DNA from: Argopecten irradians
Taxonomy: Eukaryota; Mollusca; Bivalvia; Pectinida; Pectinidae
DNA length: 64,000 nt
Direction of reading: 5' to 3'
Assembly (NCBI RefSeq): GCF_041381155.1
Contig: NC_091142.1
Location: forward strand, 25,010,362-25,074,361
The position numbers and the translations under genes were made by a program. The notes below the pieces were generated by a model. That model was not told the DNA's origin and searched no databases. It worked only from the letters and a program-made list of their open reading frames with translations. Of this stretch, positions 9,535-58,800 are shown piece after piece; position 1 is the stretch's first letter; every line of letters starts with the position of its first letter.

Positions 9535-11165
9535 TGGCGACACACTATTTTAAAAGCATGATCATAACCATCGCCCATCGCATTTATAATGAGACTCATA
9601 AATCTACTATGCAAAGTACAAGTACATAGAGATACAAAATTCAACCCTAACGCATAACAGGTCACATATTTGCAACTTAGAAGTAAGGTCCAAAGGTTAT
9701 CCCCCCCCCCGTTCTCAGATCTAGTATATTATTTATATGTTCATATTTATTAACATTATATATCAGAAAACCACAGTCTATCTCTCTCCAAACATTTTGT
9801 CCTTGTTTAGTCGTTTCTGAGTTTTAAAATTTTGCTTTGACATTTGGATATATTTTTGATATACGATATTCGCTGTGTGTCAATTATATTTTTATGAAAA
9901 AAATAAAATCTCATTATTTCCTTATCAATTAGTTATTAAAAAGTATTAAAATATGTTGTTTTTTCTATTCAGTTTTATAAAAAATTCAATTACTTGCAAG
10001 TATCGCACCCAAGAAAAGATATGATATTGTTTAACAGAAAGGGGTCATTTAAATAAACTATCATTTATTGTTTATAGTGAAACAATATTTCATTTCAATA
10101 AATCTTGAAAATCTTTATTTGTCATATTTTGTTATGAAGTTGAGATGGCAATAAATGTTCAAACTTCTAATAGGTTAGAGATACTCCACCGCTGTCAAAT
10201 GGTATTTTTTTCACTATCACAAACAGGAGCAGACGATCTAGTATTTTTCTTCAGTAACAAAAGTTACTTATTTTACATCATTACCACCATTGGAAAGTTT
10301 GAGCTTCTAATTTTACTTCAAATTAAAAATATGAAGAACAATTACTTGCATCTCGAAAAAATTCCGTGTCACTATATCCTATATGGAATGAAGTACTGAT
10401 TGCGCATGCACCAAAGTCAAAATGAATTATTTTATTTTATTTTTTGTGTTAATTAGACATATATATACACGATTAAACGCCAATTATTGTTAAAGATGCT
10501 TCACCGCTGACGAATGGTATTTTTTCACTATAAAAACAGGAGCAGACGATTTAGTATTTTTCTTCAGTTACAAAAGTTACTTACTTTACACCATTACCAT
10601 TATTGAAAAGTTTGAGCTTCTAATTTTACTTCAAATTAAAAATATGAAAAATAATTAATTGCATCCCGAAAAAATTCCGTGACACTATATCCTATATGGA
10701 ATGAAGTACTGATTGCGCATGCACCAAAGGCGAAATAAATTATTTCATAATATTTTTTGTGTTAATTAGGCATATATATACACGATTAAACACCAATTAA
10801 TGTTCAAATGATTAATATCATTTATGCTCTGTCGGCGGTGGAGCATCTTTAAGTATTAATTTGTTGCAACCATTTCCTTCATTTGAATGTCTAACTATTT
10901 GTAAATGTAAGTTTAATTAAACCAGTGAATAATTTGGTATATTGAATTAAAACAATTCCAAACTTTAACCTGCAACTTTTGACGTTACAGTACCGTTTTT
11001 GTACAGTTTCAGTTCTCTTTCTAGTCGTGAGTACTTCATAGGAACCGTAAATCGATAGAAAACTCTCAGTATTTTATCTGCAACATACGAGAGATGTTAT
11101 CTTAGTGTGTGTCCATATGCGATATATTTATTTGCCTTGATTTACATATATAATGTAATTACTTT
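9535..11165 (+). repeat. 1.6-kb tandem duplication, copy 1
   Basis: The sequence from GGCGACACAC to TAATGTAATTACTTT recurs almost unchanged in the adjacent copy, offset about 1637 bases. Differences are small: a C-run at about 9700 is longer here, and there are short A/T indels and single substitutions. It contains two tandem partial or complete copies of MITE family 4. The 84-residue open frame inside it is not conserved in copy 2. Confidence 0.85.
10490..10852. mobile_element. MITE family 4, complete copy 1
   Basis: Begins TTAAAGATGCTTCACCGCTG and ends CGGCGGTGGAGCATCTTTAA, so the termini are inverted copies flanked by TTAA. A 5'-only relative lies in tandem just before it (about 10170-10489). 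Other copies are at 12125-12488 and, inverted and interrupted, at 31498-32745. Confidence 0.8.
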
Positions 11166-12800
11166 TGGCGACACACTGGAATTTTCAAAGAATGTTTATC
11201 ATAACCATCGCCCATCGCATTTATAATGAGACTCATAAATCTACTATGCAAAGTACAAGTACATAGAGATACAAAATTCAACCCTAACGCATAACAGATC
11301 ACATATTTGCAACTTAGAAGTAAGGTCCAAAGGTTATCCCCCCGTTCTCAGATCTAGTATATTATTTATATGTTCATATTTATTAACATTATATATCAGA
11401 AAACCACAGTCTATCTCTCTCTCTCTTTGTCCTTGTTTAGTCGTTTCTGAGTTTTAAAATTTTGCTTTGACATTTGGATATATTTTTGATATACGATATT
11501 CACTGTGTGTCGATTATATTTTTATGAAAAAAAAAAAAAATCTCATTATTTCCTTATCAATTAGTTATTAAAACGTATTAAAATATGTTGTTTTTTCTAT
11601 TCAGTTTTATAAAAAATTCAATTACTTGCAAGTATCGCACCCAAGAAAAGATATGATATTGTTTAACAGAAAGGGGTCATTTAAATAAACTATCATTTAT
11701 TGTTTATAGTGAAACAATATTTCATTTCAATAAATCTTGAAAATCTTTATTTGTCATATTTTGTTATGAAGTTGAGATGGCAATAAATGTTCAAACTTCT
11801 AATAGGTAAAAGATGCTCCACCGCTGTCAAATGGTATTTTTTTCACTATCACAAACAGGAGCAGACGATCTAGTATTTTTCTTCAGTAACAAAAGTTACT
11901 TATTTTACATCATTACCACCATTGGAAAGTTTGAGCTTCTAATTTTACTTCAAATTAAAAATATGAAGAACAATTAATTGCATCCCGAAAAAATTCCGTG
12001 TCACTATATCCTATATGGAATGAAGTACTGATTGCGCATGCACCAAAGTCAAAATGAATTATTTTATTTTTATTTTTTGTGTTAATTAGACATATATATA
12101 TACACGATTAAACGCCAATTATTGTTAAAGATGCTTCACCGCTGACAAATGGTATTTTTTCACTATAAAAAACAGGAGCAGACGATTTAGTATTTTTCTT
12201 CAGTTACAAAAGTTACTTACTTTACACCATTACCATTATTGAAAAGTTTGAGCTTCTAATTTAACTTCAAATTAAAAATATGAAAAATAATTAATTGTAT
12301 CCCGAAAAAATTCCGTGACAATATATCCTATATGGAATGAAGTACTGATTGCGCATGCACCAAAGGCGAAATAAATTATTTCATAATATTTTTTGTGTTA
12401 ATTAGGCATATATATACACGATTAAACACCAATTAATGTTCAAATGATTAATATCATTTATGCTCTGCCGGCGGTGGAGCATCTTTAAGTATTAATTTGT
12501 TGCAACCATTTCCTTCATTTGAATGTCTAACTATTTGTAAATGTAAGTTTAATTAAACCAGTGAATAATTTGGTATATTGAATTAAAACAATTCCAAACT
12601 TTAACCTGCAACTTTTGACGTTACAGTACCGTTTTTGTACAGTTTCAGTTCTCTTTCTAGTCGTGAGTACTTCATAGGAACCGTAAATCGATAGAAAACT
12701 CTCAGTATTTTATCTGCAACATACGAGAGATGTTATCTTATGTGTCCATATGCGATATATTTATTTGCCTTGATTTACATATATAATGTAATTACTTTGG
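11166..12800 (+). repeat. 1.6-kb tandem duplication, copy 2
   Basis: Second copy of the block at 9535-11165. A complete MITE family 4 copy occupies 12125-12488 and its 5'-only partner about 11806-12124. Copy 2 differs by small indels. Confidence 0.85.
12125..12488. mobile_element. MITE family 4, complete copy 2
   Basis: Duplicate of the element at 10490-10852 with the same TTAA flanks and the AGATGCTTCACCGC / GCGGTGGAGCATCT termini. Confidence 0.8.
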
Positions 12801-30354: not shown

Positions 30355-30960
30355 ACAACGACAAAAACAGATGTAAAGACAAAGGCAGAGTTAGAAATAT
30401 AAACAAAGGCAGAGTTCAAAATAAATACAAAAACAGAATTAAAAATAAAGACAAAAGCAGAGTAAGAAGAAAAGACAAAAGCAGAGTAAGAAGAAAAGAC
30501 AAAGGCAGAGTTAGAAATAAAGACAAAAACAGAGTAAGAAATAAAGAAAGAGTTGGAAATAAAGACAAAGGCAGAATTAGAAATAAAGACAAAGACAAAG
30601 TTAGAAATAAAGACAAAGGAAAAGTTAGAAATAAAGACAAAAACAGAGTAAGAAATAAAGACAAAGGAAAAGTTAGAAATAAAGACAAAAACAGAGTTAG
30701 AAATAAAGACAAAGGCAGCGTTATAAAAAAGACAAAAAAAGAGTTAGAAATAAAGACAAAAACAGAGTTCGAAATAAAGACAAAGGCAAAGTTAGAAAAA
30801 AAAAGACAAAAACAGAGTTAGAAATAAAGACAAAGGCAAAGTTAGAAAAAAAGACAAAAACAGAGTTAAAAATAAAGACAAAGGCAGTGTTAGAAATAAA
30901 GACAAAAACAGAGTTAGAAATAGAGACAGAGTTGGAAATAAAGTCAAAAAATAAAATAAG
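30355..30960 (+). repeat. Purine-rich 24-base minisatellite
   Basis: Imperfect units of about 24 bases (GACAAAGGCAGAGTTAGAAA followed by TAAA) with extreme purine strand asymmetry; degenerate copies continue to about 31190. The 24-base period keeps frames open, giving a 162-residue all-basic frame (KDKGRVRN repeats) and a leucine/serine-rich one on the other strand. Both are better explained by the repeat than by selection on a protein. Confidence 0.8.
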
Positions 30961-37800: not shown

Positions 37801-40800
37801 ATACAAGATCTAACAACTCCCTGTTCAGCGCCATCTCAGCATGACCCCTATGGTTAGCCAATCAGCGTGTCCCCTATGGTTAGTCAATCAGCGTGTCGCC
37901 TGTGGTTAGCCAATCAGCGTGTCCCCTATGGTTAGTCAATCAGCGTGTCGCCTGTGGTTAGTCAATCAGCATGTCGCCTGTGGTTAGCCAATCAGCGTGT
38001 CGCCTGTGGTTAGCCAATCAGCGTGTCGCCTGTGGAATCTTCGGTGTGATTGTTTCTCTGGGAAGTGTAAACCCATACTCGTACATTCCTAGATGTTCCA
38101 ATTCTAGGCCAGGGGTCACGCTGAGGTGACCTCAAACGGGGAGTTTTTAGATCTTGTATTGGAGTGTAATAAAGAGTATCGTAGTAGAATGGAATTAGGA
38201 GTCTTAATTTAATAATATTGGTATCACCTGCTTGGTCTAGTTACTTTGTTTTCATTTTAAGCAGAGTTTTACATTCAATTCAGCAACAGCCTGACAGATG
38301 CCACTTGCATTGAAACCATGATGCTCTAATCATGGTCGTGAAAATGTTTTGAATGCATAAATCAACAAGAGATCCCAGAGGGATCTTGGCGCCCACCAAA
38401 GAATGATCTATGTCTGACAATGGAAAGAGGGATCTTTTCCCTGCTTTTCAAACTTTTTCAAACACGACTACATATAAAATTTGAAACAGATCGCTATAGT
38501 ACTTTCTAAGAAATATTGGTAACAAACTTCAACAATGAAATCCAAGCTGGCGGCGGTGCAGCCACCTTGTTGACCTATCAGTTACAAAATGCAATATGCA
38601 CCACTAGGGCCCTAAGGGAACCTACATATAAAATTTGAGAGAGATCCCTTTAGTACTTTCTGAGAAATAGCAGTAACAAACTTTAACTATCAAAATCCTA
38701 GATGGCTGCCAGGCGGCCACCTTGTTGACCTATCAGTTACAAAATGCAATATGCACCACTAGGGCCCTAAGGGAACCTACATATAAAATTTGAGAGAGAT
38801 CCCTTTAGTACTTTCTGAGAAATAGCAGTAACAAACTTTAACTACCAAAATCCAAGATGGCCGGCTGTCGGCCATCTTGTTGACCGATCGGTCCCGAAAT
38901 GCAATATGCACAACTAGGGCCCTAGGGGAACCTATATATGAAATTTGAAAAAGATCCCTTTAGTACTTTCTGAGAAATAGCAGTAACATACTTTAACTAT
39001 CAAAAACCAAGATGGTCGCCTGGCAACCATCTTGTTGACCGATTGGTCCCAAAATGCAATATGCACAACTAGGGTCCAAGGGGAACCTGCATATGAAATT
39101 TGAGAAAGATCCCTTCAGTTCTTTCTGAGGAATAGCGGTAACAAACTTTAACTATCAAAATCAAAGATGGCCGCCTGTCGGCCATCTTGTTAACTGATCG
39201 GTCCCAAATTGCATTATGCACAACTAGGGTCCTAGGGGAACATACATATCAAATTCGAGAAAGATCCCTCTAGTAGTTTCTGAGAAATAGCGGTAACAAA
39301 CTTAAACTGTCAAAATCCAAGATGGCCGGCTGTCGGCCATCTTGTTGACCAATCGGTCCCAAATTGCATTATGCACAACTAAGGTCCTAGGGGAACCTGC
39401 ATATGAAATTTAAGAAAGATCCGTTCAGTACTTTTTGAGACATAGCGGTAACAAACTTTAACTATCAAAATCCAAGATGGCCGCCTGTCGACCATCTTGT
39501 TGACTGATCGGTCCCAAAATGCAATATGCACAACTACGGTCCTAGGGGAACCTGCATATGAAATTTAAGAAAGACCCCTTCAGTGCTTTCTGAGAAATAG
39601 CGGTAACAAGAATTGTTAATGGACGGACGAGGGACGGACGGACGGAAGGACGGACCATGGACCACGGACGAAAGGCGATTTGAATAGTCCACCATCTGAT
39701 GATGGTGGGCTAAAAACATTATAGAAGCGTTTGAATGATATTGATGTGTGCGTGCGTTTGATTGGCACCTAAAGTTATGTCTTTCGAAGATCGTGGCCAA
39801 TATTTCTATTTACTTATTTCTTAACTTTCAAAAGCGTGGAAAAACAATTACAAAGGATAAGGTGTAATTTACTGTGTGAAATCGTAGAAACTATACTAAA
39901 AGCGTCAAAGGCAAATCTTTAAATGTTTGTGTTATGCAAAATTTCAAATCAATATGAAAAATTTGTTAGGTTTAAAAACACGAAATTAAGTCGCCACAAA
40001 TACAAGCTGGTGTACAGTAACCCAGAGGTTCAAAGTTTGATCCCTAGTGGAGACAGTGCTTAAATTTTATATAAAATTCCTGCTTTCTGTTACATAAGAG
40101 AAACAGGTAGAAACACATGAGAAGACTTACCTCTCTAGCTTCTTTAGCTGATCATTAATACTGCGATTACTGGGCTCCTTACGCTGAGCCCTGATTAGGT
40201 AACCTCGTGCTCTGTCAAACTCCTGTTGCTGGTGTAAGGCCTGTGATAAAACAAACTTAGTGATGACCTATAGAATCCTTATCCACCTTACACCTAACCA
40301 GTCAGGGTTCGATCCCTGGCACGGTCATGAAAAATGTAAGGAGTCAACTGTCCAATATATCATATACTTCAGTTGCCTCCCACTCGCGCTTACCTCGGGG
40401 CCATCACAAGTGATTTGTTTAATTTATATATTAACTTGTAATTGATGTAAAATAAATAGATTTTATCTACCTGTATACAACATCATCAAAGACAAAACCA
40501 TATTTCTTATCCAATAATCCGCCTGATATCCATTGACTTTTCCCATGTAATATATTTGAATATGTCACTAGTGTAATATAACCTGGAGTGATTTTCATTA
40601 TAATGTAGTCGTGATTTAACATCTAATTTAAGTAAAGTGATGTTAGGATTCCTGGACGTTGTGACAAAATGTCAGCCTCAGCTGGATTTTTGCAACACAT
40701 TTTTGCAATGAGATTCTTCGAAATGTAGGTTGTTGTAGTTATGTGATCAAGGGTATTAATTTGTGTTCATTGTATATGAAATTTTAAGAAATGAGTTAAA

Positions 40801-43800
40801 GAAGTCTATATTTTTGTGAGCCTTCTTACACGCCATGTTAAGAGTTCAAACAATTGATGCTGTCGTACATTATCATAGAGTTAAATTTAAGAACTGTTTC
40901 CTTATCAAACATAAAATATTTTTACATCAGTCTACATAGTTTACTTTATCATACTGGATTTCAAAAATATATACTATATATTTCCTACCTTGCCATAGAA
41001 GTAGAGAGCCTTAACATTTTCAGGTTCGATCTCCATCATCCTTTTACAGTAACTAATACAGCGGCCGGGTTTTTTCATCCTGTCGCTACACACAGCCATG
41101 TGATGGTACATCTTAAACAACATCTCTTGTTGTTCCTTCTCCTCTTCATCATCTTTAAGGCGGTACTCCTCCAGTATAGTGGCAGCCTGTAGGATACAAT
41201 TACAATCTCATTAAAGTGAATAGTCGTGCAAAGAAAACTGATATAAATGAGGTATTCCAAAAGTCTTTATATATCAAAATGATGGTCTAGTTTTGTCATG
41301 TTGTCCAGTTTTAATGGTGATATACAGTTCCCTAATTTTACCTTTCTATAATGGTGATATACCGTCCCCTAATTTTACCTTTCTATAATGGTGATATACA
41401 GCCCCCTAATTTTACCTTTCTATAATGAAATATGGTGAAATACAGTACCCTAATTTTACCTTTCTATAATGGTGATATACAGTCCCCTAATTTTACCTTT
41501 CTGTAATGGTGATATACAGTCCCCTAATTTTACCTTTCTATAATGGTGATATACAGTCCCCTAATTTTACCTTTCTATAATGGTGATATACAGTCCCCTA
41601 ATTTTACCTTTATACAGTCCCCTAATTTTACCTTTCTATAATGGTGAAATACAGTACCCTAATTTTACCTTTCTAAAATGGTGATATACAGTCCCCTAAT
41701 TTTACCTTTCTGTAATGGTGATATACAGTCCCCTAATTTTACCTTTCTGTAATGGTGATATACAGTCCCCTAATTTTACTTTCTATAATGGTGATATACA
41801 GTCCCCTAATTTTACCTTTCTATAATGGTGATATACAGTCCCCTAATTTTACCTTTCTATAATGGTGATATACAGTCCCCTAATTTTACCTTTCTATAAT
41901 GGTGATATACAGTCCCCTAATTTTACCTTTCTATAATGGTGATATACAGCCCCCTAATTTTACCTTTCTATAATGGTGATATACAGTCCCCTAATTTTAC
42001 CTTTCTATAATGGTGATATACAGTCCCCTAATTTTACCTTTCTATAATGGTGATATACAGTCCCCTAATTTTACCTTTCTATAATGGTGACCTACAGTCC
42101 CCTAATTTTACTTTTCTATAATGGTGATATACAGTCCCCTAATTTTACCTTTCTATAATGGTGATATACAGTCCCCTAATTTTACCTTTCTATAATGGTG
42201 ATATACAGTCCCCTAATTTTACCTTTCTATAATGGTGATATACAGTCCCCTAATTTTACCTTTCTATAATGGTGATATACAGTCCCCTAATTTTACCTTT
42301 CTATAATGGTGATATACAGTACCCTAATTTTACCTTTCTATAATGGTGATATACAGCCCCCTAATTTTACCTTTCTATAATGGTGATATACAGCCCCCTA
42401 ATTTTACCTTTCTATAATGGTGATATACAGTCCCCTAATTTTACCTTTCTATAATGGTGATATACCAGTCCCCCTAATTTTACCTTTTCTCTATAATGGT
42501 GATATACAGTCCCCTAATTTTACCTTTCTATAATGGTGATATACAGTCCCCTAATTTTACCTTTCTATAATGGTGATATACAGTCCCCTAATTTTACCTT
42601 TCTGTAATGGTGATATACAGTCCCCTAATTTTACCTTTCTATAATGGTGATATACAGTCCCCTAATTTTACCTTTCTTAATGGTGATATACAGTCCCCTA
42701 ATTTTACCTTTCTATAATGGTGATATACAGTCCCCTAATTTTACCTTTCTATAATGGTGATATACGTCCCTAATTTACAGTCCCCTAATTTTACTTTTCT
42801 ATAATGGTGATATACAGTCCCCTAATTTTACCTTTCTATAATGGTGATATACAGTCCCCTAATTTTACCTTTCTGTAATGGTGATATACAGTCCCCTAAT
42901 TTTACCTTTCTGTAATGTGATATACAGTCCCCTAATTTACCTTTCTGTAATGACGATATACAGTCCCCTAATTTTACCTTTCTATAATGGTGATATACAG
43001 TCCCCTAATTTTACCTTTCTATAATGGTGATATACAGTCCCCTAATTTACCTTTCTATAATGGTGATATACAGTCCCCTATTTTACCTTTCTTCTAATGG
43101 TGATATACAGTCCCCTAATTTGACCTTTCTATAATGGTGATATACAGTCCCCTAATTTTACCTTTCTATAATGGTGATATACAGTCCCCTAATTTTACCT
43201 TTCTATAATGGTGATATACAGTACCCTAATTTTACCTTTCTATAATGGTGATATACAGTCCCCTAATTTTACCTTTCTTATAATGGTGATATACAGTCCC
43301 CTAATTTTACCTTTCTATAATGGTGATATACAGTCCCCTAATTTTACCTTTCTATAATGGTGATATACAGTACCCTAATTTTACCTTTCTATAATGGTGA
43401 TATACAGTCCCCTAATTTTACCTTTCTATAATGGTGATATACAGTCCCCTAATTTTACCTTTCTATAATGGTGATATACAGTCCCCTAATTTTACCTTTC
43501 TATAATGGTGATATACAGTCCCCTAATTTTACCTTTCTATAATGGTGATATACAGTCCCCTAATTTTACCTTTCTATAATGGTGATATACAGCCCCCTAA
43601 TTTTACCTTTCTATAATGGTGATATACAGTCCCCTAATTTTACCTTTCTATAATGGTGATATACAGTCCCCTAATTTTACCTTTCTATAATGGTGATATA
43701 CAGTCCCCTAATTTTACCTTTCTATAATGGTGATATACAGTCCCCTAATTTTACCTTTCTGTAATGGTGATATACAGTCCCCTAATTTTACCTTTCTATA

Positions 43801-46800
43801 ATGGTGATATACAGTCCCCTAATTTTACCATTCTATAATGGTGATATACAGTCCCCTAATTTTACCTTTCTGTAATGGTGATATACAGTCCCCTAATTTT
43901 ACTTTTCTATAATGGTGATATATAGTCCCCTAATTTTACTTTTCTATCATGGTGATATACAGTACCCTAATTTTACCTTTCTGTAATGGTGATATACAGT
44001 CCCCTAATTTTACCTTTCTGTAATGAAGATATACAGTCCCCTAATTTGACCTTTCTGTAATGACGATATACAGTCCCCTAATTTTACCTTTCTGTAATGA
44101 CGATATACAATCCCCTAATTTTACCTTTCTATAATGGTGACCTACAGTCCCCTAATTTTACTTTTCTATCATGGTGATATACAGTCCCCTAATTTGACCT
44201 TTCTATAATGGTGATATACAGTCCCCTAATTTTACCTTTCTATAATGGTGATATACAGTCCCCTAATTTTACCTTTCTATAATGGTGATATACAGTCCCC
44301 TAATTTTACCTTTCTATAATGGTGATATACAGTCCCCTAATTTTACCTTTCTGTAATGGTGATATACAGTCCCCTAATTTGACCTTTCTATAATGGTGAT
44401 ATACAGTCCCCTAATTTTACCTTTCTATAATGGTGATATACAGTACCCTAATTTTACCTTTCTATAATGGTGATATACAGTCCCCTAATTTTACCTTTCT
44501 ATAATGGTGATATACAGTCCCCTAATTTGACCTTTCTATAATGGTGATATAGTCCCCTAATTTTACCTTTCTATAATGGTGATATACAGTCCCCTAATTT
44601 TACCTTTCTATAATGGTGATATACAGTACCCTAATTTTACCTTTCTATAATGGTGATATACAGCCCCCTAATTTTACCTTTCTATAATGGTGATATACAG
44701 CCCCCTAATTTTACCTTTCTATAATGGTGACCTACAGTCCCCTAATTTTACTTTTCTATAATGGTGATATATAGTCCCCTAATTTTACTTTTCTATCATG
44801 GTGATATACAGTACCCTAATTTTACCTTTCTATAATGGTGATATACAGCCCCCTAATTTTACCTTTCTATAATGGTGATATACAGCCCCCTAATTTTACC
44901 TTTCTATAATGGTGACCTACAGTCCCCTAATTTTACCTTTCTATAATGGTGATATACAGTCCCCTAATTTTACCTTTCTATAATGACGATATACAGTCCC
45001 CTAATTTTACTTTTCTATCATGGTGATATACAGTACCCTAATTTTACCTTTCTATAATGGTGATATATAATATAATAAGTTTTATTTCATAAGATACTGA
45101 TATAGACTTACAGCTATTTGTGTGTGTCCCAGGTCTAAACGTATATATACTATCAGTTATCAGTGCCATGCGATAGCTGGCCAGGTCTGTACATAATAGT
45201 CTGGGTTATAGGTATAGGTTTCTCGTTGTTGTGTAATGGTATGTGGTGTCTGAACATCTTATATGTAATGCTAATTGTGAAACTGGTCAGTATTAATTGG
45301 TTCAGCGTGTTACTTATGTTATGCAGTAGCTATCCATGTACATTTTTGTATCAGATGTTTCAGGTGTTGGATATCATGGCCAAATACTGATTCTCATGCT
45401 CTCGTTGTTATGTAGAAGAGAGAGGGAGAAACATAGAGGGGCACACACCTTGTGTGTGGTCCCATTTTGGGCCACATAAGATTTCACGGCTTGATTGTTA
45501 AGACGGCATTACGTCAGCACAAGCATTTTTTTTCTTTTCATTAACTCCATTTTTATATAGCACAAGTTTGAACAGTACTAGTTCAGGTTAATCATTTTTT
45601 TTTTAATCCTTTTTGGATTTATGAACTAAATGAAATTTCTATGCTAATGAACTCTATCATCCTTTATTTTACAAAATCATGATATTTAAACATTCTTAAA
45701 AATTACTATTAGTCTAAGATATTTGAAATACAATACAACAAAATTCTGTTTTACATATGTTGTTACTCTGAGCAAATGTACAATTACTTTTTTATAGCAT
45801 TTTCATTTTTACTGGTTGGTTAATACTTAAATATCATTCACAATACATTTGTAACCATGCACTTGGTAATTTCTATATATTGGTCATTTTATAATTGATT
45901 TATCACCTAACGTTTAACAGATACACAAAACACTGTGCCCAGGTCAAATTATTCAATTAATTATATTGCATCATGTACATTTATAACTGATAACTAACAA
46001 GAAACATATTATGTTCTAATATAGCTACACACTGTAATATAAATACCAATGATTAATTAGAGAATATTTTTCCACTTTATTAATAGTACAGATTTTCTTA
46101 AAGCAGTGTAACAATTTATTGCTAAATTTTTATATACTCTGTGACTTATCCATGGTATGCTGTTGTACTATAATTTTTCATATGGAAGTTCTTTTAACAT
46201 TTTATATTGTGACATTAATACATTTGATATTCATATTCACTTAAACATAATGTAAAATATACAATGTAAAATATACAAACACATTAACTTACAAAATAAT
46301 TTGGGGAATGCCCAATGCAGTTTTATGCTGGGTTCACATAAGTTGAAATATGTTCCTCTTGCTTTATTTACACAACTTTGCTACATTTATTACTTGCACA
46401 ACAACAAAGAACTTCCTGTGAATTGTATCATTACATTAATTGTTTACCAGTCTTAGTCTAATTAAAGACGAGGCATCATGCTAGTGTTTTAAAACGATAT
46501 GATGTTGACCTAGCGCTATTCATTTGCTTTCATTTTCATTTTTATTTTAATAACAGCATAATTATCATGAATATGTCGAAGTCCTGTAATTGTTTTTGTA
46601 TTTTGCTTACACAAACTCTAGCTACAAATATAGAATCAGTTCTTGTATGTTCTTCAAGTTGATTTACATTGTACATCATTTATAATTATTAAGTACATAA
46701 TCTATAATTATCAAGCTTTATATAAATTCATATGATAATGTTTAAGTCTTGTATCAATTTAGATTGTATTTCGGAAACATAGCGGAATATAATAAGTTTT

Positions 46801-49800
46801 ATTTTAAATTTATTATTATTATTTCAAATTAAAACTAATTTTAGATAATTATTAACAAGGGGACGTAATATAATATAATAAGTTTTATTTCATAAGATAC
46901 TGATATAGACTTACAGCTATTCGTGTGTGTCCCAGGTCTAAACGTATATATACTATCAGTTATCAGTGCCATGCGATAGCTGGCCAGGTCTGTACATAAT
47001 AGTCTGGGTTATAGGTATAGGTTTCTCGTTGTTGTGTAATGGTATGTGGTGTCTGAACATCTTATATGTAATGCTAATTGTGAAACTGGTCAGTATTAAT
47101 TGGTTCAGCGTGTTACTTATGTTATGCAGTAGCTATCCATGTACATTTTTGTATCAGATGTTTCAGGTGTTGGATATCATGGCCAAATACTGATTCTCAT
47201 GCTCTCGTTGTTATGTAGAAGAGAGAGGGAGAAACATAGAGGAGCACACACCTTGTGTGTGGCCCCATTTTGGGCTCCTGATATAATGTACAATGTATAT
47301 TGCATGCATATTGTAAAATGCACCAAGAATATAAAACGTCCACACAATATTGGTCTCCTTCATCATTGAACTACAACAAAGACACCATGCCGGCCAATTA
47401 CATTAACAACGCCAGCATCACCAGAAACAACTCGACATTTGTATATCAACAAGCATTTAAAGTCATTTTATTATAGATATACAGTCCTCTAATTTTACCT
47501 TTCTATAATGACGATATGCATTTGGATATTTTTCTTCATCATAGAGTTGTTTTCCATGCTGCAATATTGAATATTAAAAGTTTGAGTAATCATCATTTAA
47601 AATATTAATTAGACATTTAATGAAGTTTAGTTAAATACTTTCTCTATTACATTTTGGCCTTATTTATAAATAAAATCTTAAAAATTGTATAATTTTTAAA
47701 ATAAAATGAATCTACATGCAAAATAATTAGTCACTGAAAAGATTAACTTTACCCTGTAACATAACTCGACTGATCAGTTTGAATTGCATTTTGATTTCAT
47801 ACTGGTGAAGATCAAATGTCTGGATATTTGATTTGTACATTTCTGTATTAGTTCTTAGATTGGTACATAAAATGAACACATACAATGATTTCTTTATGAT
47901 AGAATTAATTTTGCTGATAAACAAGTGTACACCGTTACTTATAGTGGTATATTCTTATCATAGTGCCTTGCACATACCATAATTGCACTAATTCTGGACT
48001 AGTACAGCACTAGAATAGCTATGGAATTTTTATTATGTATTTATATGTATAACATGAGATGTAGTGGTTGTGAAATTAAAGATTGCGTTTAAAAGTCCCC
48101 ATCAGAGAGCTAGAATTCGAGTGTGCTAATTTAAGTACACATACAGTAACTTGTCAGTCTTAAGGTAATATATATTCAATTACATGAATTTTGTATTATA
48201 TCAGATACCATTTTTCACTCAATAAGCCCCAATGCCCCTATAAGTGCCCCTCTCCCTTTTTGAGGTCTTGATTTCAAGGCATAAAGACCAAAACTACACA
48301 AAACTGTATAGATTTGCAATAATTTCATCTTTCATCTAATTAGCACCTTTTCATTTTTTTAATGTTTTAAACGCCCTGGGCACTTATTGGGTCAAATACG
48401 GTCCATATAAATGTACTGTAAAATTATTATATTTCATGGGGTTATTTTCATGACTATTTCTTTTCTTGGACTAAAATCAAAAGTCTAAGATTAAATCCCC
48501 ACAAAACAGAAATATACAATTTTATAAGGTGATATGACCTAAATTCCAGATTGTATTTTCCAAGTTTTCAACTAAGGTCTTTTCCACAAGTGACAACAAA
48601 AAGTAAAATTTCGTAATTGTGAACATTGTGGCCAGCAAAAATATAAAATGATTTCATAGTTATTTTTATCATTAATCAATTTAAGATGTATTAAGATGTA
48701 ATTTGAATTATTGTGGAATATTAAATTGTTCCTACAACTGATACAGTGATAATTACCTGCTTTTCTTCGTTGTAAACTTTCCTTAGCTGCTCAAATTTCA
48801 AATTTCGCTTTTCCTCCTGAGTTAAATGGAGAAAAAAAAATGTTTCCCATTCAAAATTTTTCCTTCAGTTATCTCTTTCAGTTATCATGGTTAAATCCAG
48901 TTAATTCCGTCTCTAAAACAGAATGTGTATAATATGCTATTCAAGGAAACTAACCTCCTTTTATGCTATTCAAGGAAACTAACCTCCTTTAATGAGCTTG
49001 TATTGTTCACTAAAATAAATTGCTGATTCTTCTCTGGCTCTGATTTCTCGAAACAAAAGTACAGACTTAAGTCAAAACTTAAATTTTTCTCCTTATGTAA
49101 TTATGTTGATAAAATTGACTTAAGTTTGTTTCGAGAAATCGGGGCCAGATTACCTATCAAGCATTTGAAGATGGTTCTGATTTGGACAGAAAAGTTATAG
49201 TAACCGAATACTTAATTAGATAATTGGCAGTACTGTATATTATGAAATTGTCGTAGTGTTGAAATGTTCATTGTTTTCCTGGTAGCTATAATGGAACAAT
49301 GAATATAAAGACAATGAATGATGTTTTATCATGCAACTGTCCCACATACTGACCGATAACTACTGCCGGATAAACTTGTGCTTTATCCGTCAATACGATA
49401 TGCTTTATCCGTCAATACGATATGCTTTATCCGTCAATACGATATGCTTTATCCGTCAATACGATCACGTGAATTTGTTCCATATCTGACGGCACTTTTT
49501 CTAACTTGACCCAGAACTTGAACCTTCCGGTGAATGAAACGTCATTCAGTCCCGCTAAAACGTGACGTCACATTCACCGAAATGACGTCATTTTTACGAT
49601 ATCGAAAATCTCGTATGGCGGTGTCGTCTTTTTCTTGGCTCATGACAAAGGTATGTATTGTTAAGTAATTATTTAATGGGTATTTATTGTTATTTGAGTA
49701 TTTTCATTTCCTTTCAGTGATATATCACACTGACTAGAATTACGGTGACTGTTTGTGAATGCGCTTATTTATTTCCCACGGCAGTAAAAAGGAGTGCACT

Positions 49801-52800
49801 CTCATTCGGTTAAGTGAATGAATCTTTACCTCCGCATCAAAGAATTGTCTCGCTTTGAGCAAAACAAAGTAAGGAACTGTCAATTTGCTTTCGTTTTGAA
49901 TGCCATAATGGTTGCAGGATAAACAGAATACACGGTTAGTATCTTACAATACAAGGTTTATTTCGGTGCTCGACACGGAAAGCCGAGATGACTAGGCAGA
50001 GCCTCGTCATCTCGGCTTTCCTAAGTCTCGCACCAAAATAAACCTTGTATTGTAAGATACTAACCGTGTATTCTCTATTTATAATACATCCTTATCATCG
50101 TTGTTCCATAGGTTAACCACGAATATTTTTATCTATGAAATAAACGCTACAAACCACAAAAGTAAGAACCCACAAATAATTTATGTAATACAGTGGATGA
50201 GAGACAACATAGTTATCTCACCTCTGTTAGGAAGTTGTACTCGTCCAGTCCAGCATGCTCAACAAAATATATCAGCTCCACTTCATACATCACTATAATT
50301 AAAACACACTAATAATTACAATATTTCTTATTTGATAATCATTATTAGAATATCGTGGCAAAATAAATTTCAAATTTTCTGAATTTGAAAAATCATCAGC
50401 CCTTTGTTTTCTTTTTTTTTTTTTTTTTTTATCTAGAAGCATCTGATATATACCGGTAAGCGTTTCTGTAGTAGAACACAACTTAATCTTGTCAAGTCAC
50501 TTAACTGCATGTACTGCTTGGAGTATCAGTGCCCAGTTTCATCAACAGTCCTTAACTTTAAGGAACTCCTTAACTTAAAATACTCCATTAGAAAGCATTT
50601 ATTTACATTGAATAATAGCTTCTCTGCGGAGAATTTTAGGTTTAGGAGTGCTATGTATAGGAATGCTATATATATAGGAATGCTATGAAACTGGGCCGAT
50701 TTTTTTCCAAGACTTTACAAGGTATGATTGTATTATTTTAACATAATTTACTGTTATGGAATACATATCTCATTTGAAGCCTACAAAGGAGATTAAAGAT
50801 CAAGCTTATATTAATAACACTTTTAACAATTAACATTGCAAGTTAGGCAATGTAAAAGACTGGAATTTAGCTTTATATAGAACGAATATACGTATCCGGC
50901 CTACAATATCTTTCGGCCCGGTGTAGCATGGTATTTTGAATCATGGTATATTGACCCCAGGGTCAAAATACCATTATGGTGAAATGACCCCGGGGTCAAA
51001 ATACCATTATGGTGAAATGACCCCTCCCCCATGGTAAAATGACTCCCCCTTCTAAAAAATACTATAACACTTGTTAACATGATATTTTCTTCTCATTTAT
51101 GATAAACTTCAAATTGGGATTAAGTTAGACCTATGGCTAGTATGTGGAAGGCATTTTTTTTATTTTGTTTTGGGAAGGGGGGGCGGGGGGTCAAAATACC
51201 ATGGCCATGGTGGAATGACCCCCCAATTATGTCTTTTAAATTCACATTTAACTGCTTTAAAATACAATAAAATATTATGATTTTAATGAATATTACATGT
51301 TATTTGCAAAAAAACGGTACGAAATGGTGCCTATGTGTCCTAGTGGAGCAGTGCCTCAGAAAATCACTCGGGCAAGCTTTTCTATACTTTTTTGTAGGGA
51401 TCCAATAGTTTTCTTTATAAATATATATTTATATGTTATTTTTATCCAAAACAAACATAACAACAATTCTTAATATTTACTGTACCGCTTACAAGACATC
51501 AAGACCACAATTTGTAGACTTGCCGTATAATTTTCCTTCGAAAAGACCTTCATATTTATATGTGCAAAAAAATAATGTCTCACTGTGAATTTGATATCTT
51601 ATATGGTGCAGTTTTGTAGGTAAGTAGACTTGCCGTATAATTTTCCTTCGAAAAGACCTTCATATTTATATGTGCAAAAAAATAATGTCTCACTGTGAAT
51701 TTGATATCTTATATGGTGCAGTTTTGTAGGTAAGTGATATAAAACAAGTATGTTACAAAATGCATAAAATTGTTTGAATAATCATTACTTTGCTCCATTA
51801 GCAGTAATAGTCACCAATTGTAGCTCTAATGGCGACACCACTACCTGTCAAAAGTCTTTTGAGCTACAACATTGCAGCTAAGCCTTATATAGTCATAGTG
51901 CATTTGTCTTTTTACCTGTAGCTTCTGGAGGTATACGAGGAGCACAGCCAAGTTTTCCAAAGGCATATTCATGGTTGATAATGAACCTAGACAATTCTCC
52001 TTTCTTCATTGTTGAAACACCTATCTCTAATCCTTCTACTAGTTGGCCTGTAAATATACAAATACGGGATACTGACAGGATTTAGAGATAATCAGCTGTG
52101 TTAATGATCAAAATGTTTTTACATATCAAAATTGTTTGTTTGTTTGAGTTTTACGGCACATCGACAACTAAGGTCATAAGAGGACTGATTACAATGTATA
52201 TATTGTATCACATGCAACAATATTGGGCATTCTGCAGTGGTGCAGGAACAAATTCACCAACAAGAGGCCCAGAGGGCCTGTATCGCTCACCTGGTTTGTA
52301 ATGCCAAGTAATGTTCTAAATACAGGTTCATTGTTTCTTTTCTGAAGGAATTCGAATATTTACCTCTAATTCACCTACTGGGCCCTACCCATCCTGCCCC
52401 CGGGGGGTCAGAGCCAACATTTATAGAAGTTCTGTTTCCCTTCCCCCATGGATGTTTGTGGCCAAATTTGGTCACAATCCATGCAGAACTCTAGGACAAG
52501 TAGCGATTTATAGGATTTACCTCTATTTCCCCTATTGGGCTCCACCCCTCCTGCCCCCGGGGGGTCAGAGCCAACATTTATAGAAGTTCTGTTCCCCTTC
52601 CCCCAAGGATGTTTGTGGCCAAATTTGGTCACAATCCATGCAGAACTCTAGGACAAGTAGCGATTTATAGGATTTACATCTATTTCCCCTATTGGGCCCC
52701 GCCCCTCCTGCCCCCAGGGGTTCAGAGCCAAACTTTATACAAGTTCTGTTCCCCTTCCCCCAAGGATGTTTGTGGCCAAATTTGGTTACAATCCATGCAG

Positions 52801-55800
52801 AACTCTAGGACAAGTAGCGATTTATAGGATTTACCTCTATTTCCCCTATTGGGCCCCGCCCCTCCTGCCCCCGGGGGGTCAGAGCCAAACTTTATACAAG
52901 TTCTGTTCCCCTTCCCCCAAGGATGTTTGTGGCCAAATTTGGTTACAATCCATGCAGAACTCTAGGACAAGTAGCGATTTATAGGATTTACCTCTATTTC
53001 CCCTATTGGGCCCCGCCCCTCCTGCCCTCGGGGGGTCAGAGCCTAACTTTATACAATTTCTGTTCCCCTACCCCCAAGGGTGTTTGTGGCCAAATTTTGT
53101 TACAATCTATGCAGAACTCTAGGACAAGTAGCGATTTATAGGATTTACCTCTATTTCCCCTATTGGGCCCCGCCCCTCCTGCTCCCGGGGGGGTCAGAGC
53201 CAAACTTTATACAAGTTCTGTTCCCCTTCCCCCAAGGATGTTTGTGGCCAAATTTGGTTACAATCCATGCAGAACTCTATGACTAGTAGCGATTTAAAGG
53301 AAATGTTGACGGACGGACGCCGGACGCCGGACGCCAGACGCCGGACGACGGACGCCGCGCCATGACATAAGCTCACCGGCCCTTCGGGCCAGGTGAGCTA
53401 AAAATATACATAATGAAATCAATTTAAATTTGTAATAATTATTTTATTGTGGATAAAAACTATACATGCAGGTAAAATATTGGCATCTTACTAAGTTTGA
53501 GGGATCACTGATAAATAAATATTGTACCTAGAGAACCTGGACTGTTGTCTTTTGAGAGATCACCGATAAATGAATATTGAACCTGGACTGTTGTCTTTAA
53601 AATAGAGATGTGCAACATGACAAGAATTTATTTAACTTTTATGGCTTTGCTAATAAAGCAAAGAAAATTTCAGAAATCTAAAGGTTAGGTAGAACGGAGC
53701 AGATTGTGACATCAAAGCCATAGAAGGTAGAGTGTTAAAAGTGGTAGGCTTCCATGTATGGCGGAACATGCATTGTTAACATATATGTGTAATGCAATTA
53801 CATATTTGACCCATTCATCCCTGCCCATCCCAAAACACCTAACTCCCCAAAGCCCCCTCTCCATCTTCAATTTTTGGACTCCTTTATTCACAATTTCAGA
53901 TCCTCTCCTGTTATAATCAGGAGGCATTAAAAGCATTTCATAAAAGCTTAGCAGTTGGATAATCCAAGCTTGTTTGCACATAATTTGATACAATAAGCAT
54001 TCATGTTTCCATAAGCATTTGGGGTGTAACAATACATTGAACTATCAATATATTTTGGTTGTATGCCTCTCAACTATTCCATCTTAGCATATTACAGAGT
54101 TAGCTCCCTTGCAAGTGGGTATAAATTGTGATCCCAATGTCTTTATTTTGTGAGCATGATTCACATCATGTTCCCTGGAACTCAGAAAGGTATGACTTTA
54201 CTCTTGAAAACACATGACGTCATTAGCAATACAAGGGCAGATAACTTTGTAAGATGCAAATACGGAAAACATAATTCAATTTAATTTTGAAAACAAATAG
54301 AATTAAGAAAATTAAAACAAAAAAATGATTGTATACTAAAGTTCCAAACCCTGACAGATATTACCCCCAAACATTTCCTGTTATACAATACCATGTAGTT
54401 TCTTTATTTTATCTCTGAAAAAAAATTTATTTGTGGCTTACTTCATGTAATAATTTTGTTAAATGTCTGAATTCTGGTATTTAAAAGCACACTTTAACTT
54501 TCTCAAATTTCCAACCACACCAATCACTAATTGGATCCAATGTGGTAATTGGTGTATCATTTTTATAACAGTGTAATTGAAGAGAAAACCAAGCCATTGT
54601 TAGGATACATATGCATTTTACCTTTTCCTATCTGTTTTTTAACAGGAGCATTCCGTAGGCGTGAAGAATCAAACGGTTCATCAGCATACTCCAGAAATCC
54701 ATTGTAGTGGACTACAAAACAAACAAGATTTCCTGAATCAATATGTTTGTTAAAGGGTTCTAAAATTATTGTATGTTTATAATCTTTGGCCATCAATAAG
54801 GATTTTCTAAATTCTCTTGTTGTTTTTAAGAACCTTTCAATTCTTGTTTTGGAAAATTAGTGGGCTTTTAAAACATTCATTAAGTATCAACAATCAATGC
54901 CATGATAAAAATACTATTACAAGTCATAGGCTCCATGTGTAGGGTAAAGGTCCCTTCACACAATAGACCAAAGATGAACTACATTGTTTCATAAAGCAAA
55001 TAATATGATTATAGATAGTATGAACTAGCTCATTCATCTATAAGATAAACCTTCAGACAGGAAGATAAACCACATCATAAACACTGATCTACATATTAGC
55101 AAATTAACAAATGAAAGAAAATGAATGCAAAGAGTATCAAAATGCGTCTTCTGGACAGAAGAACATACAGAAGACAAAATTTACGATTACATATATGAAT
55201 CAGAATTATTATAAAACAAAAAGATGACTGATCAATATTACTAGTCAGAGAGAATTTGTGAAGATTCATTAATGCAGGAATATTACAAGAGTAACTGGCA
55301 TGGCCAGTATTTTATTTTAACACATTTTAATAATGAGAACTCATTTGCATAGTACATCAGCATCACCTGTCTGCCTCTTTGTTGTCCATTTTGACTGCAG
55401 TGGTCGGAGTGTTGTTTATATAATGAATGTTGGTTTACCGTTTTCGTACCCTAATCAGTGCCCCTTCATTTTAACCTGGGAGCTAATTACGATGATACCG
55501 TATATCAATTTGTATCTAATACTCACTTGTGACAATAGATCCTGCAGGGATTACATTGCCAGTTCCGTGTGTTAGGATCTTCTTAACAACACCACCATCT
55601 TCAATCAGCTTCTCCATTTTCTTTGCCATTTTTTCAAAAGGATTTGTTCCATCCTCTTCATCTGTATCCTCCTCATCCTCGTCGGGAATATAACAATTCT
55701 TCAGCACATCGTTGGGCTCAAAGAAGGCATTGCTGGTAAGGTTTTCATCTAAAAACACATTTCATAGCACATTTGTAATAATTGTAATTGAAAGTAAATT

Positions 55801-58800
55801 GCTGACTTACAAAAGCAGATGAAAACTAAGTGTTGTAAGATATAGTAAAGGTTTGATTATTCAGATCAAGCTATCTGCTGCTCATTCGCAAAGGCAGTTT
55901 TTCAAGAAGAAAATTGGCAGGCATATATGGATTTTTAGTTTGCAATGTCTCTCTTTGACCCTAACATATGTGTGAATAGGCAAACAGAGATTTGCATTAG
56001 GAATGAACAACACAAAATATTTTTGAAATCTGCAAATAAGTAGATAGTTTTAAACCTGGAGCCATGTAGTCCTCTTTCAGCTCAAAACTCTGGCCCTCAC
56101 TCAACGGATCCCGTAGTTCATTTAAGTTAAGAGGCTCCCGCAGGGGTACAGAAACATCTTCTTGCTAAAAAGAAGAAAATATTTATAATGTAATTCATGT
56201 AATTATTTTGACAGGGTTTTTGACATGGGTTTGTTTCCCAGGGTGTTATTGGTGTCTTAAATTACAGAATTTGTATATCAAAAATAAGAAAATTCATGAT
56301 TTTGTGCAAAACCAAACAAGAGGCCCAGAGGGCCTGTATCGCTCACCTGGTTTGTAATGCCAAGTAAATGTTCTGAATACAGGTTCATTGTTTCTTTTCT
56401 GAAGGAATTTTAATATTAACCTCTAAACCCCCTATTGGGTCCCACCCCTCCTGCCCCCAGGGGGTCAGAGCCAAAATTTATACAAGTTCTGTTCCCCTTC
56501 CCCCAAGGATGTTTGTGGCCAAATTTGGTCACAATCCAAGCAAAACTCTAGGACAAGTAGTGATTTATAGGATTTACCTATATTTCCCCTATTGGGCCCC
56601 GCCCCTCCTGCCCCCGGGGGAACGAGACCAAAATTCATACAAGTTCTGTTCCCCTTCCCCAAAGGATGTTTGTGGCCAAATTTGGTTACATTCCATTCAG
56701 AACTCTATGACTAGTAGCGATTTAAAGGATTTACCTCTATTACCCCTTTTGGCCCCCCCCCCCCTCCTGCCCCCGGGGGACCAGAGCCAAAATTTTTACA
56801 CGTTCTGTTCCCCTTCCCCCAAGGATGTTTGTGGCCAAATTTGGTTACATTCCATTCAGAACTCTATGACTAGTAGCGATTTAAAGGATTTACCTCTATT
56901 TCCCCTATTGGGCCCCGCCCCTCCTGCCCCTGGGGGATCAGAGCCAAAATTTATACAAGTTCTGTTCCCCTTCCCCAAGGATGTTTGTGGCCAAATTTGG
57001 TTACATTCCATTCAGAACTCTATGACAAGTAGCGGTTTAAAGGATTTACCTCTATTTCCCCTATTGGGCCCCGCCCCTCCTGTCCCTGGGGGATCAGAGC
57101 CAAAATTTATACAAGTTCTGCTCCCCTTCCCCCAAGGATGTTTGTGGCCAAATGTGGTTACAATTCATGTAGAACTCTTTGACTAGTAGCGATTTAAAGG
57201 ATTTACCTCTATTTCCCCTATTGGGCCCCGCCCCTCCTGCCCTGGGGGATCAGAGCCAAAATTTATACAAGTTCTGTTCCCCTTCCCCCAAGGATGTTTG
57301 TGGCCAAATTTGGTTACAATCCATGCAGAACTCTTTGACTAGTAGCGATTTAAAGGATTTACCTCTATTTCCCCTATTGGGCCCCGCCCCTCCTGCCCTG
57401 GGGGATCAGAGCCAAAATTTATACAAGTTCTGTTCCCCTTCCCCCAAGGATGTTTGTGGCCAAATTTGGTTACATTCCATTCAGAACTCTATGACTAGTA
57501 GCGATTTAAAGGATTTACCTCTATTACCCCTATTGGGCCCCACCCCTCCTGCCCCCGGAGGACCAGAGCCAAAATTTTTACATCTTCTGTTCCCCTTCCC
57601 CAAGGATGTTTGTGGCCAAATTTGGTTACATTCCATTCAGAACTCTATGACTAGTAGCGATTTAAAGGATTTACCTCTATTTCCCCTATTGGGCCCCGCC
57701 CCTCCTGCCCCTGGGGGATCAGAGCCAAAATTTATACAAGTTCTGTTCCCCTTCCACCAAGGATGTTTGTGGCCAAATGTGGTTACAATTCATGTAGAAC
57801 TCTAGGACAAGTAGCGATTTAAAGGATTTACCTCTATTTCCCCTATTGGGCCCCGCCCCTCCTGCCCTGGGGGATCAGAGCCAAAATTTATACAAGTTCT
57901 GTTCCCCTTCCCCCAAGGATGTTTGTGGCCAAATTTGGTTACATTCCATTCAGAACTCTATGACTAGTAGCGATTTAAAGGATTTACCTCTATTACCCCT
58001 ATTGGGCCCCACCCCTCCTGCCCCCGGAGGACCAGAGCCAAAATTTTTACATGTTCTGTTCCCCTTCCCCAAGGATGTTTGTGGCCAAATTTGGTTACAT
58101 TCCATTCAGAACTCTATGACTAGTAGCGATTTAAAGGATTTACCTCTATTTCCCCTATTGGGCCCCGCCCCTCCTGCCCCTGGGGGATCAGAGCCAAAAT
58201 TTATACAAGTTCTGTTCCCCTTCCACCAAGGATGTTTGTGGCCAAATGTGGTTACAATTCATGTAGAACTCTAGGACAAGTAGCGATTTAAAGGATTTAC
58301 CTCTATTTCCCTTATTGGGCCCCGCCCCTTCTGCCCTCGGGGGACCAGAGCCAAAATTTATACAAGTTCTGTTCCCCTTCCCCCAAGGATGTTTGTGGCC
58401 AAATTTGGTTACATTCCATTCAGAACTCTATGACAAGTAGCGGTTTAAAGGATTTACCTCTATTTCCCCTCTTGGGCCCCGCCCCTCCTGTCCCTGGGGG
58501 ATCAGAGCCATAATTTATACAAGTTCTGTTCCCCTTCCCCCAAGGATGTTTGTGGCCAAATGTGGTTACAATCCATGTAGAACTATAAGACAAGTAGGGA
58601 TTTAAAGGATTTTCCCCTATTGGGCCCCGCCCCTCCTGCCCCCGGGGAGTCAGAGGCAAAATTTATACAAGTTCTGTTCCCCCTTCCCCAAGGATGTTTG
58701 TGGTCAAATTTGGTTACAATCCATGCAAAACTCTATGACTAGTAGCGATTTAAAGGAAATGTTGACGGACGGACGACGGACGACGGACGGACGGACGGAC

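Follow-up and report, generated by a model that had tools for sequence, protein, structure and literature searches.

A tandem array that probably grew from a splice junction in an FKBP6-like gene of the scallop Argopecten irradians

Intron 8 of the FKBP6-like gene of the scallop Argopecten irradians contains a long tandem array, whose 37-bp unit repeats the exon 8/intron 8 junction, and a mobile element of the long terminal repeat (LTR) type, which separates the array from that junction. Both lie in a window of 64,000 nucleotides (NCBI RefSeq assembly GCF_041381155.1, contig NC_091142.1, positions 25,010,362 to 25,074,361 of the forward strand), which we analysed to follow up an earlier note made from its letters. 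That note had described the junction and the array but had overlooked the mobile element between them; its interpretation is supported in part, for the junction origin of the unit but not for the slippage primer that it proposed at the source. Here, we describe the gene, the array and the element, and weigh how the array may have arisen and whether it affects splicing.

The host gene is encoded on the minus strand and specifies FKBP_C and TPR domains. Joining eight of its exons gives a protein identical to P0001 (Argopecten irradians FKBP6-like), with 93% identity if exon 6 is omitted from the query; exons are numbered as in the earlier note, and exon 1 was not located. The 3′ end of exon 8 encodes YRHYRK. 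Its counterpart is FRHYRK in Ylistrum balloti (P0002) and Mizuhopecten yessoensis (P0003), FRHYRR in P0004, KYRK in P0005, P0006 and P0025, and KYKK in P0008, P0009 and P0014, and both the tyrosine at the exon 8 end and the alanine that opens exon 9 are invariant in 19 of 19 aligned rows. The best sequence match in the PDB, FKBP4 (8ffv_D), aligns without a gap across the exon 8/9 point, and a public protein model links the two exons as K-AATILEE at the authentic donor. Judged by these residues, exon 8 is ancestral, as had been proposed, and older than the array.

Table 1. Features around intron 8 of the FKBP6-like gene, in positions of the window (a slash marks the exon/intron border)
Feature	Positions	Strand	Details
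37-bp array	41312..45065	-	101 units, full or nearly so, and one 12-nt partial unit on the exon 9 side; wrap-around alignment
Source unit	47481..47517	-	19 exonic and 18 intronic nt; 3/37 differences from the array consensus
Unit 3, counted from the exon side	44956..44992	-	nearest match to the source; its 1 difference falls in a column in which 101/101 units depart from the source
Exon 8, FKBP6-like gene	47499..47558	-	60 nt, phase 0-0, HGKQLYDEEKYPNAYRHYRK; acceptor TTGCAG, donor AAG/GTAAAA; protein identical to P0001
Authentic GT donor of exon 8	47497..47498	-	
Exon 9 (AATILEEYRL...)	40989..41186	-	acceptor TCCTACAG
LTR-type mobile element, deleted form, dispersed in the genome	45066..47475	+	2410 bp
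Right LTR	46866..47475	+	610 bp; ends TATTATA; preceded by purine-rich AACAAGGGGACG
Left LTR, first 408 bp only	45065..45472	+	99.3% identical to the right LTR
Target-site duplication GATA, left copy	45062..45065	+	
Target-site duplication GATA, right copy	47476..47479	+	
Proposed founding homology m1, in exon 8	47506..47520	-	TGCATATCGTCATTA; exon continues TAGAAAG
Proposed founding homology m2, at the far edge of the array	41312..41326	-	TGTATATCACCATTA; then unique intron AAACTGG

The array agrees with the earlier estimate of about 100 units (Table 1; Tandem Repeats Finder (TRF) sets the bounds at 41312-45067). Read on the gene strand, the unit consists of ATATCACCATTATAGAAAG up to the exon/intron border and GTAAAATTAGGGGACTGT beyond it, and thus takes in the last bases of exon 8 together with its GT donor and the beginning of the intron; 42 of the 101 units equal the consensus. 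When the units were aligned to the source unit, which sits on the junction itself, the few differences (Table 1) upheld the identification of the unit as the exon 8/intron 8 junction. The donor 9-mer AAGGTAAAA, the same as that of the authentic donor, is found in 84/101 units, while AAAGTAAAA occurs in 8, AAGGTCAAA in 5 and the remaining forms in 4, so that the array does hold many near-identical donor copies, as the earlier note had stated. It had also remarked on units with the exon variant ACGATAT, and four units (at 44992, 44106, 44069 and 42959) indeed have AC before GATAT on the plus strand. In a comparison of nine exons (2-10) with the window, exons 2-7, 9 and 10 matched themselves alone, and the exon 8 region had 103 matches, including itself.

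Substitutions are unevenly spread over the unit. A post hoc observation, which we leave unexplained, is that columns 20-21 and 23-31 (the donor's intron side, with GT and AAATTAGGG) are without substitution in all 101 units; column 26 has one deletion, and all 19 substitution types fall in columns outside 20-21 and 23-31. Along the array, the non-consensus share is 0.79 in the exon-proximal third (34 units) versus 0.42 (33 units) and 0.53 (34 units) in the other two. We do not use this difference as support, and its permutation p of 0.002 (first 34 units versus the rest) overstates it, because the likeness of neighbouring units is ignored. We rejected the idea that the array forms a stable RNA structure, as one 186-nt stretch of it showed no folding advantage over shuffled versions (z +1.47), and a search of 39700-50000 with a 14-base seed returned no inverted repeats of 30 bp or more.

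What separates the source unit from the array is an insert with long direct terminal repeats, a short target duplication and dispersed copies, and thus an LTR-type element. Base 45065 is shared, being both the first match of the left LTR and the last base of the GATA duplication. Used as a genome query, 45068-47475 gave at least 51 rows, the window itself included (40 of 227 candidates scored), and among the rows listed, 12 of the other 50 reach the last base of the query. As the query was cut at 47475, the element boundary was judged from the flanks of the copies: the element ends in TATTATA (TATCATA in L035), and the flanks beyond differ among the window, L022/L031, L023/L032, L033, L034, L035 and L040. 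The left LTR is short in L031 too (410 bp; 408 bp in the window copy). Copies L022 and L023 continue after it with approximately 1.4 kb that is missing from the window copy, while L036 to L039 have a left repeat of the 610-bp type, followed by internal CTGGCGCTG instead. By these comparisons, the window copy is a member of a deleted form of the element family.

Target duplications of 4 bp were found in 3/3 insertions with both outer ends readable, namely GATA (window), AATG (L031) and CTAT (L034). For this count, the element ends were taken as TATAATA and TATTATA, and the L034 duplication, present in three segmental copies, was counted once; nine loci (L032, L033 and L035-L041) have one usable end or a nested structure, and L024-L030 were left out. 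The two LTRs of the insert differ at only 3/408 bases, so that the insertion is young. As an observation on the family, L034 (C3:771700-779100) is a solo LTR with identical flanks, present three times at ~3-kb spacing, which makes it a segmental tandem triplication.

Removing the element restores the array to its source. Joined over a single GATA, the flanks read exon 8 followed by GTAAAATTAGAGGACTGTATATCACCATTATAGAAAGGTAAAATTAG..., in perfect unit register, so that the array once ran straight out of the donor of exon 8. The units thus run in tandem across the exon-intron boundary and, in the joined empty site, adjoin their parent boundary, from which they are 2.4 kb apart today. This 2.4-kb distance is made up of the inserted element and not of old intron. 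This changes the role of the two GATAT pentamers that the earlier note had proposed as a primer of slippage at the source: both are present, 37 bp apart, but the second opens the second array unit, which the insertion has separated from the first, and we reject it as an ancestral primer. Ectopic copying over 2.4 kb was likewise rejected, since the whole gap is a dispersed element with a target duplication. The present distance would fit a junction copy that was set 2.4 kb away by template switching, expanded there and was never contiguous with exon 8. We hold this to be very improbable, however, because the entire gap is accounted for by one dispersed element with its 4-bp duplication in unit register.

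The unit could also be a satellite from elsewhere that landed in this intron, its resemblance to the junction being due to chance or conversion. The earlier note had named dispersal of the unit at unrelated loci as the observation that would speak for this, and the genome searched comprises 845,758,899 bases in 1508 contigs. With a 32-base pattern of the unit, allowing 3 mismatches at most, 93 matches were obtained, and among those listed, all are inside the array; the reversed control gave 0. Used as a DNA query, the junction gave 97 matches genome-wide, all at this locus among those listed, in a search mode that passes over very common words, so that the counts are lower bounds. None of the genome matches listed places the unit at an unrelated locus, and as far as searched, the 37-bp unit is local to intron 8 of the FKBP6-like gene. 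Nothing was found in favour of a landed satellite, while the exonic bases of the unit encode conserved residues and removal of the element leaves source unit and array in perfect register; we find such an arrival barely credible.

We consider it quite probable that the array is a mirage-type minisatellite (the kind known from amphioxus), grown from the 5′ splice junction of exon 8 itself and now a mostly silent passenger of the intron. The founding step may be recorded in a short homology. The exonic m1 and the m2 at the distal end of the array (Table 1) match at 12/15 positions, and this imperfect 15-nt repeat is a better candidate for the founding homology than the GATAT pentamers, with m2 belonging to the ancestral intron. 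That intron would have been ~155 nt long, with TGTATATCACCATTA placed downstream of the exonic TGCATATCGTCATTA, at a distance of 37 bp. As proposed, GGACTGTATATC would have continued into ACCATTAAAACTGG and the exonic TAGAAAG would have been joined to GTAAAATTAG, so that the short pre-array intron would read GTAAAATTAG-GGACTGTATATCACCATTAAAACTGG. Unequal exchange or slippage with a switch point within the shared CATTA would have given a hybrid unit, made of intronic ...ATATCACC, followed by the exonic TAGAAAG and then by the donor and intron start. Nearly all units have ACC where the source has GTC, presumably because of this CATTA exchange with intronic sequence; the four GTC units might stem from a switch point lying a few bases before this one, or might be early relics.

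Repeated exchange could then have raised the number to ~100 copies, by single-unit and multi-unit steps. Multi-unit steps are indicated because variant patterns recur in blocks, with the same variants in the same order in units 5-7 and 10-12. The LTR-type element inserted later, between the first and second units, and moved the copies 2.4 kb further away. The intron would have grown from 155 nt before the array, a length obtained by subtraction, to 3898 nt with the array and without the insert, and it now measures 6312 nt. If so, the locus offers a case of intron growth from ~155 nt to 6.3 kb in two steps, with an apparent birth event preserved in the form of the source unit, the hybrid unit and a candidate founding homology.

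The consequences for splicing depend on how the authentic donor is told from its copies. Its predicted pairing with U1 amounts to -6.8 kcal/mol, versus -14.0 for a consensus site, and it is no stronger than most array copies. With donors equally strong, the choice of the authentic one would have to rest on the neighbouring exon and acceptor, and it would still serve as the sole donor adjoining exon 8 with its acceptor. If exon 8 were spliced from an array donor instead, a stop codon would be added: read-through from the exon ends within the first 37 nt in the joined allele and, as the locus stands today, after 11 codons. The locus constitutes a natural test of how the spliceosome chooses the real donor among ~100 near-identical ones. 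A human cell contains about a million U1 particles. Against such numbers, ~100 weak sites in one intron make the titration of U1, which the earlier note had suggested, implausible.

The array donors may nevertheless be active, competing for U1, slowing or diverting the splicing of exon 8 according to copy number and yielding premature-stop transcripts. Such activity would be in keeping with the authentic 9-mer in 84 units, the GT present in every unit, a weak authentic donor without a strength advantage and a stop that is met at once on read-through. Set against this are the nearest array donor, which now lies ~2.4 kb from exon 8, the protein model, which employs the authentic donor, and amphioxus arrays of like kind, which are reported to leave splicing undisturbed (PMC3087553, PMC3902484). 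Moreover, selection on the donor 9-mer leaves no significant sign in either direction (3/19 distinct substitution types versus 4.6 expected, P 0.29). On balance, we regard active array donors as unlikely, though an effect on splicing may exist as a minority chance. Because the 9-mer is without a significant sign of being kept or purged, the array is probably a near-neutral passenger. An improbable variant of the active reading concerns the past: ~100 decoy donors of equal strength, beginning 37 nt past the real one, could have lowered or modulated FKBP6 splicing by copy number, with the insertion acting as a shielding spacer that was tolerated or favoured. If true, this would be a transposon insertion kept for shielding a splice site.

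Several points weigh against growth from the junction into a silent passenger. Unit 27, which ranks second in likeness to the source (2 differences), lies away from the exon edge. The GT is retained in 101/101 units, which a neutral passenger need not do. The m2 sequence could be merely a truncated last unit, which leaves the founding step unproven, and this step is read from the intron of this one assembly alone. It is a protein model that points to the authentic donor being used, and the confinement of the unit to this locus is based on counts that are lower bounds.

Other repeats lie elsewhere in the window. Two arrays, at 52358-53301 (6 copies) and 56415-58757 (15 copies), share a nearly identical unit of 156-157 bp; one lies between exons 4 and 5 of the FKBP6-like gene and the other upstream of its exon 2. 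Both are preceded by similar leader sequence and followed by short GACG-rich repeats, and they probably represent a single mobile element, present twice and containing a satellite. Between exons 10 and 11, the same gene has 7.4 copies of a 155-bp unit (38468-39609), and between exons 5 and 6 an exact 110-bp tandem duplication (100% identical; 51514-51735). At 30374-30928, a 24-bp unit is repeated ~23 times, with a lysine/arginine-rich plus-strand frame of 169 codons from stop to stop, which remains open because 24 is a multiple of 3. Finally, two nearby tandem pairs at 10174-10804 and 11809-12440 consist of closely related 313-bp and 317-bp units.

Among known systems, the closest are the mirages of amphioxus (PMC3087553). 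They are described as exon-intron boundaries duplicated in tandem in the manner of a minisatellite; many of the units contain splice signals, and splicing seems to proceed regularly. Like arrays are described in other lancelet genes (PMC3902484), and the mirage genes named are Adh3, the globins BflGb6 and BflGb9, TnC and PGBD5 (PMC3087553, PMC3902484). As far as these descriptions go, the scallop array shares with them the boundary-spanning tandem units, a splice signal in many of them and an origin beside the parent exon, and its source unit keeps its own variants, much as boundary units of BflGb6 are reported to escape homogenisation. It differs in its scallop host, in its number of units (~100, versus 6 and 3 in two BflGb6 haplotypes) and in the LTR-type insertion that lies between it and its source. 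The human G1P3/IFI6 minisatellite reportedly offers multiple splice donor sites as well; there, the repeat donors are said to be used in transcripts, whereas in the scallop their use for exon 8 would give a stop. Within molluscs, an intronic minisatellite is found in intron 3 of the abalone TSSK1-like gene, with a 27-bp unit whose repeat number differs among individuals (PMC6905558). Its unit is not described as spanning a splice junction in the accessible part of that report, and the scallop array is known from one assembly. No exon-junction minisatellite of a mollusc was noticed among the matches listed in the open-licence literature. The array is of the mirage kind, which is already named and rare, and what sets it apart is its lineage, its copy number, its preserved source and the LTR-type insertion that splits it. 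It takes exon-junction minisatellites beyond lancelets into a bivalve, with far more units than in the lancelet cases of known number.

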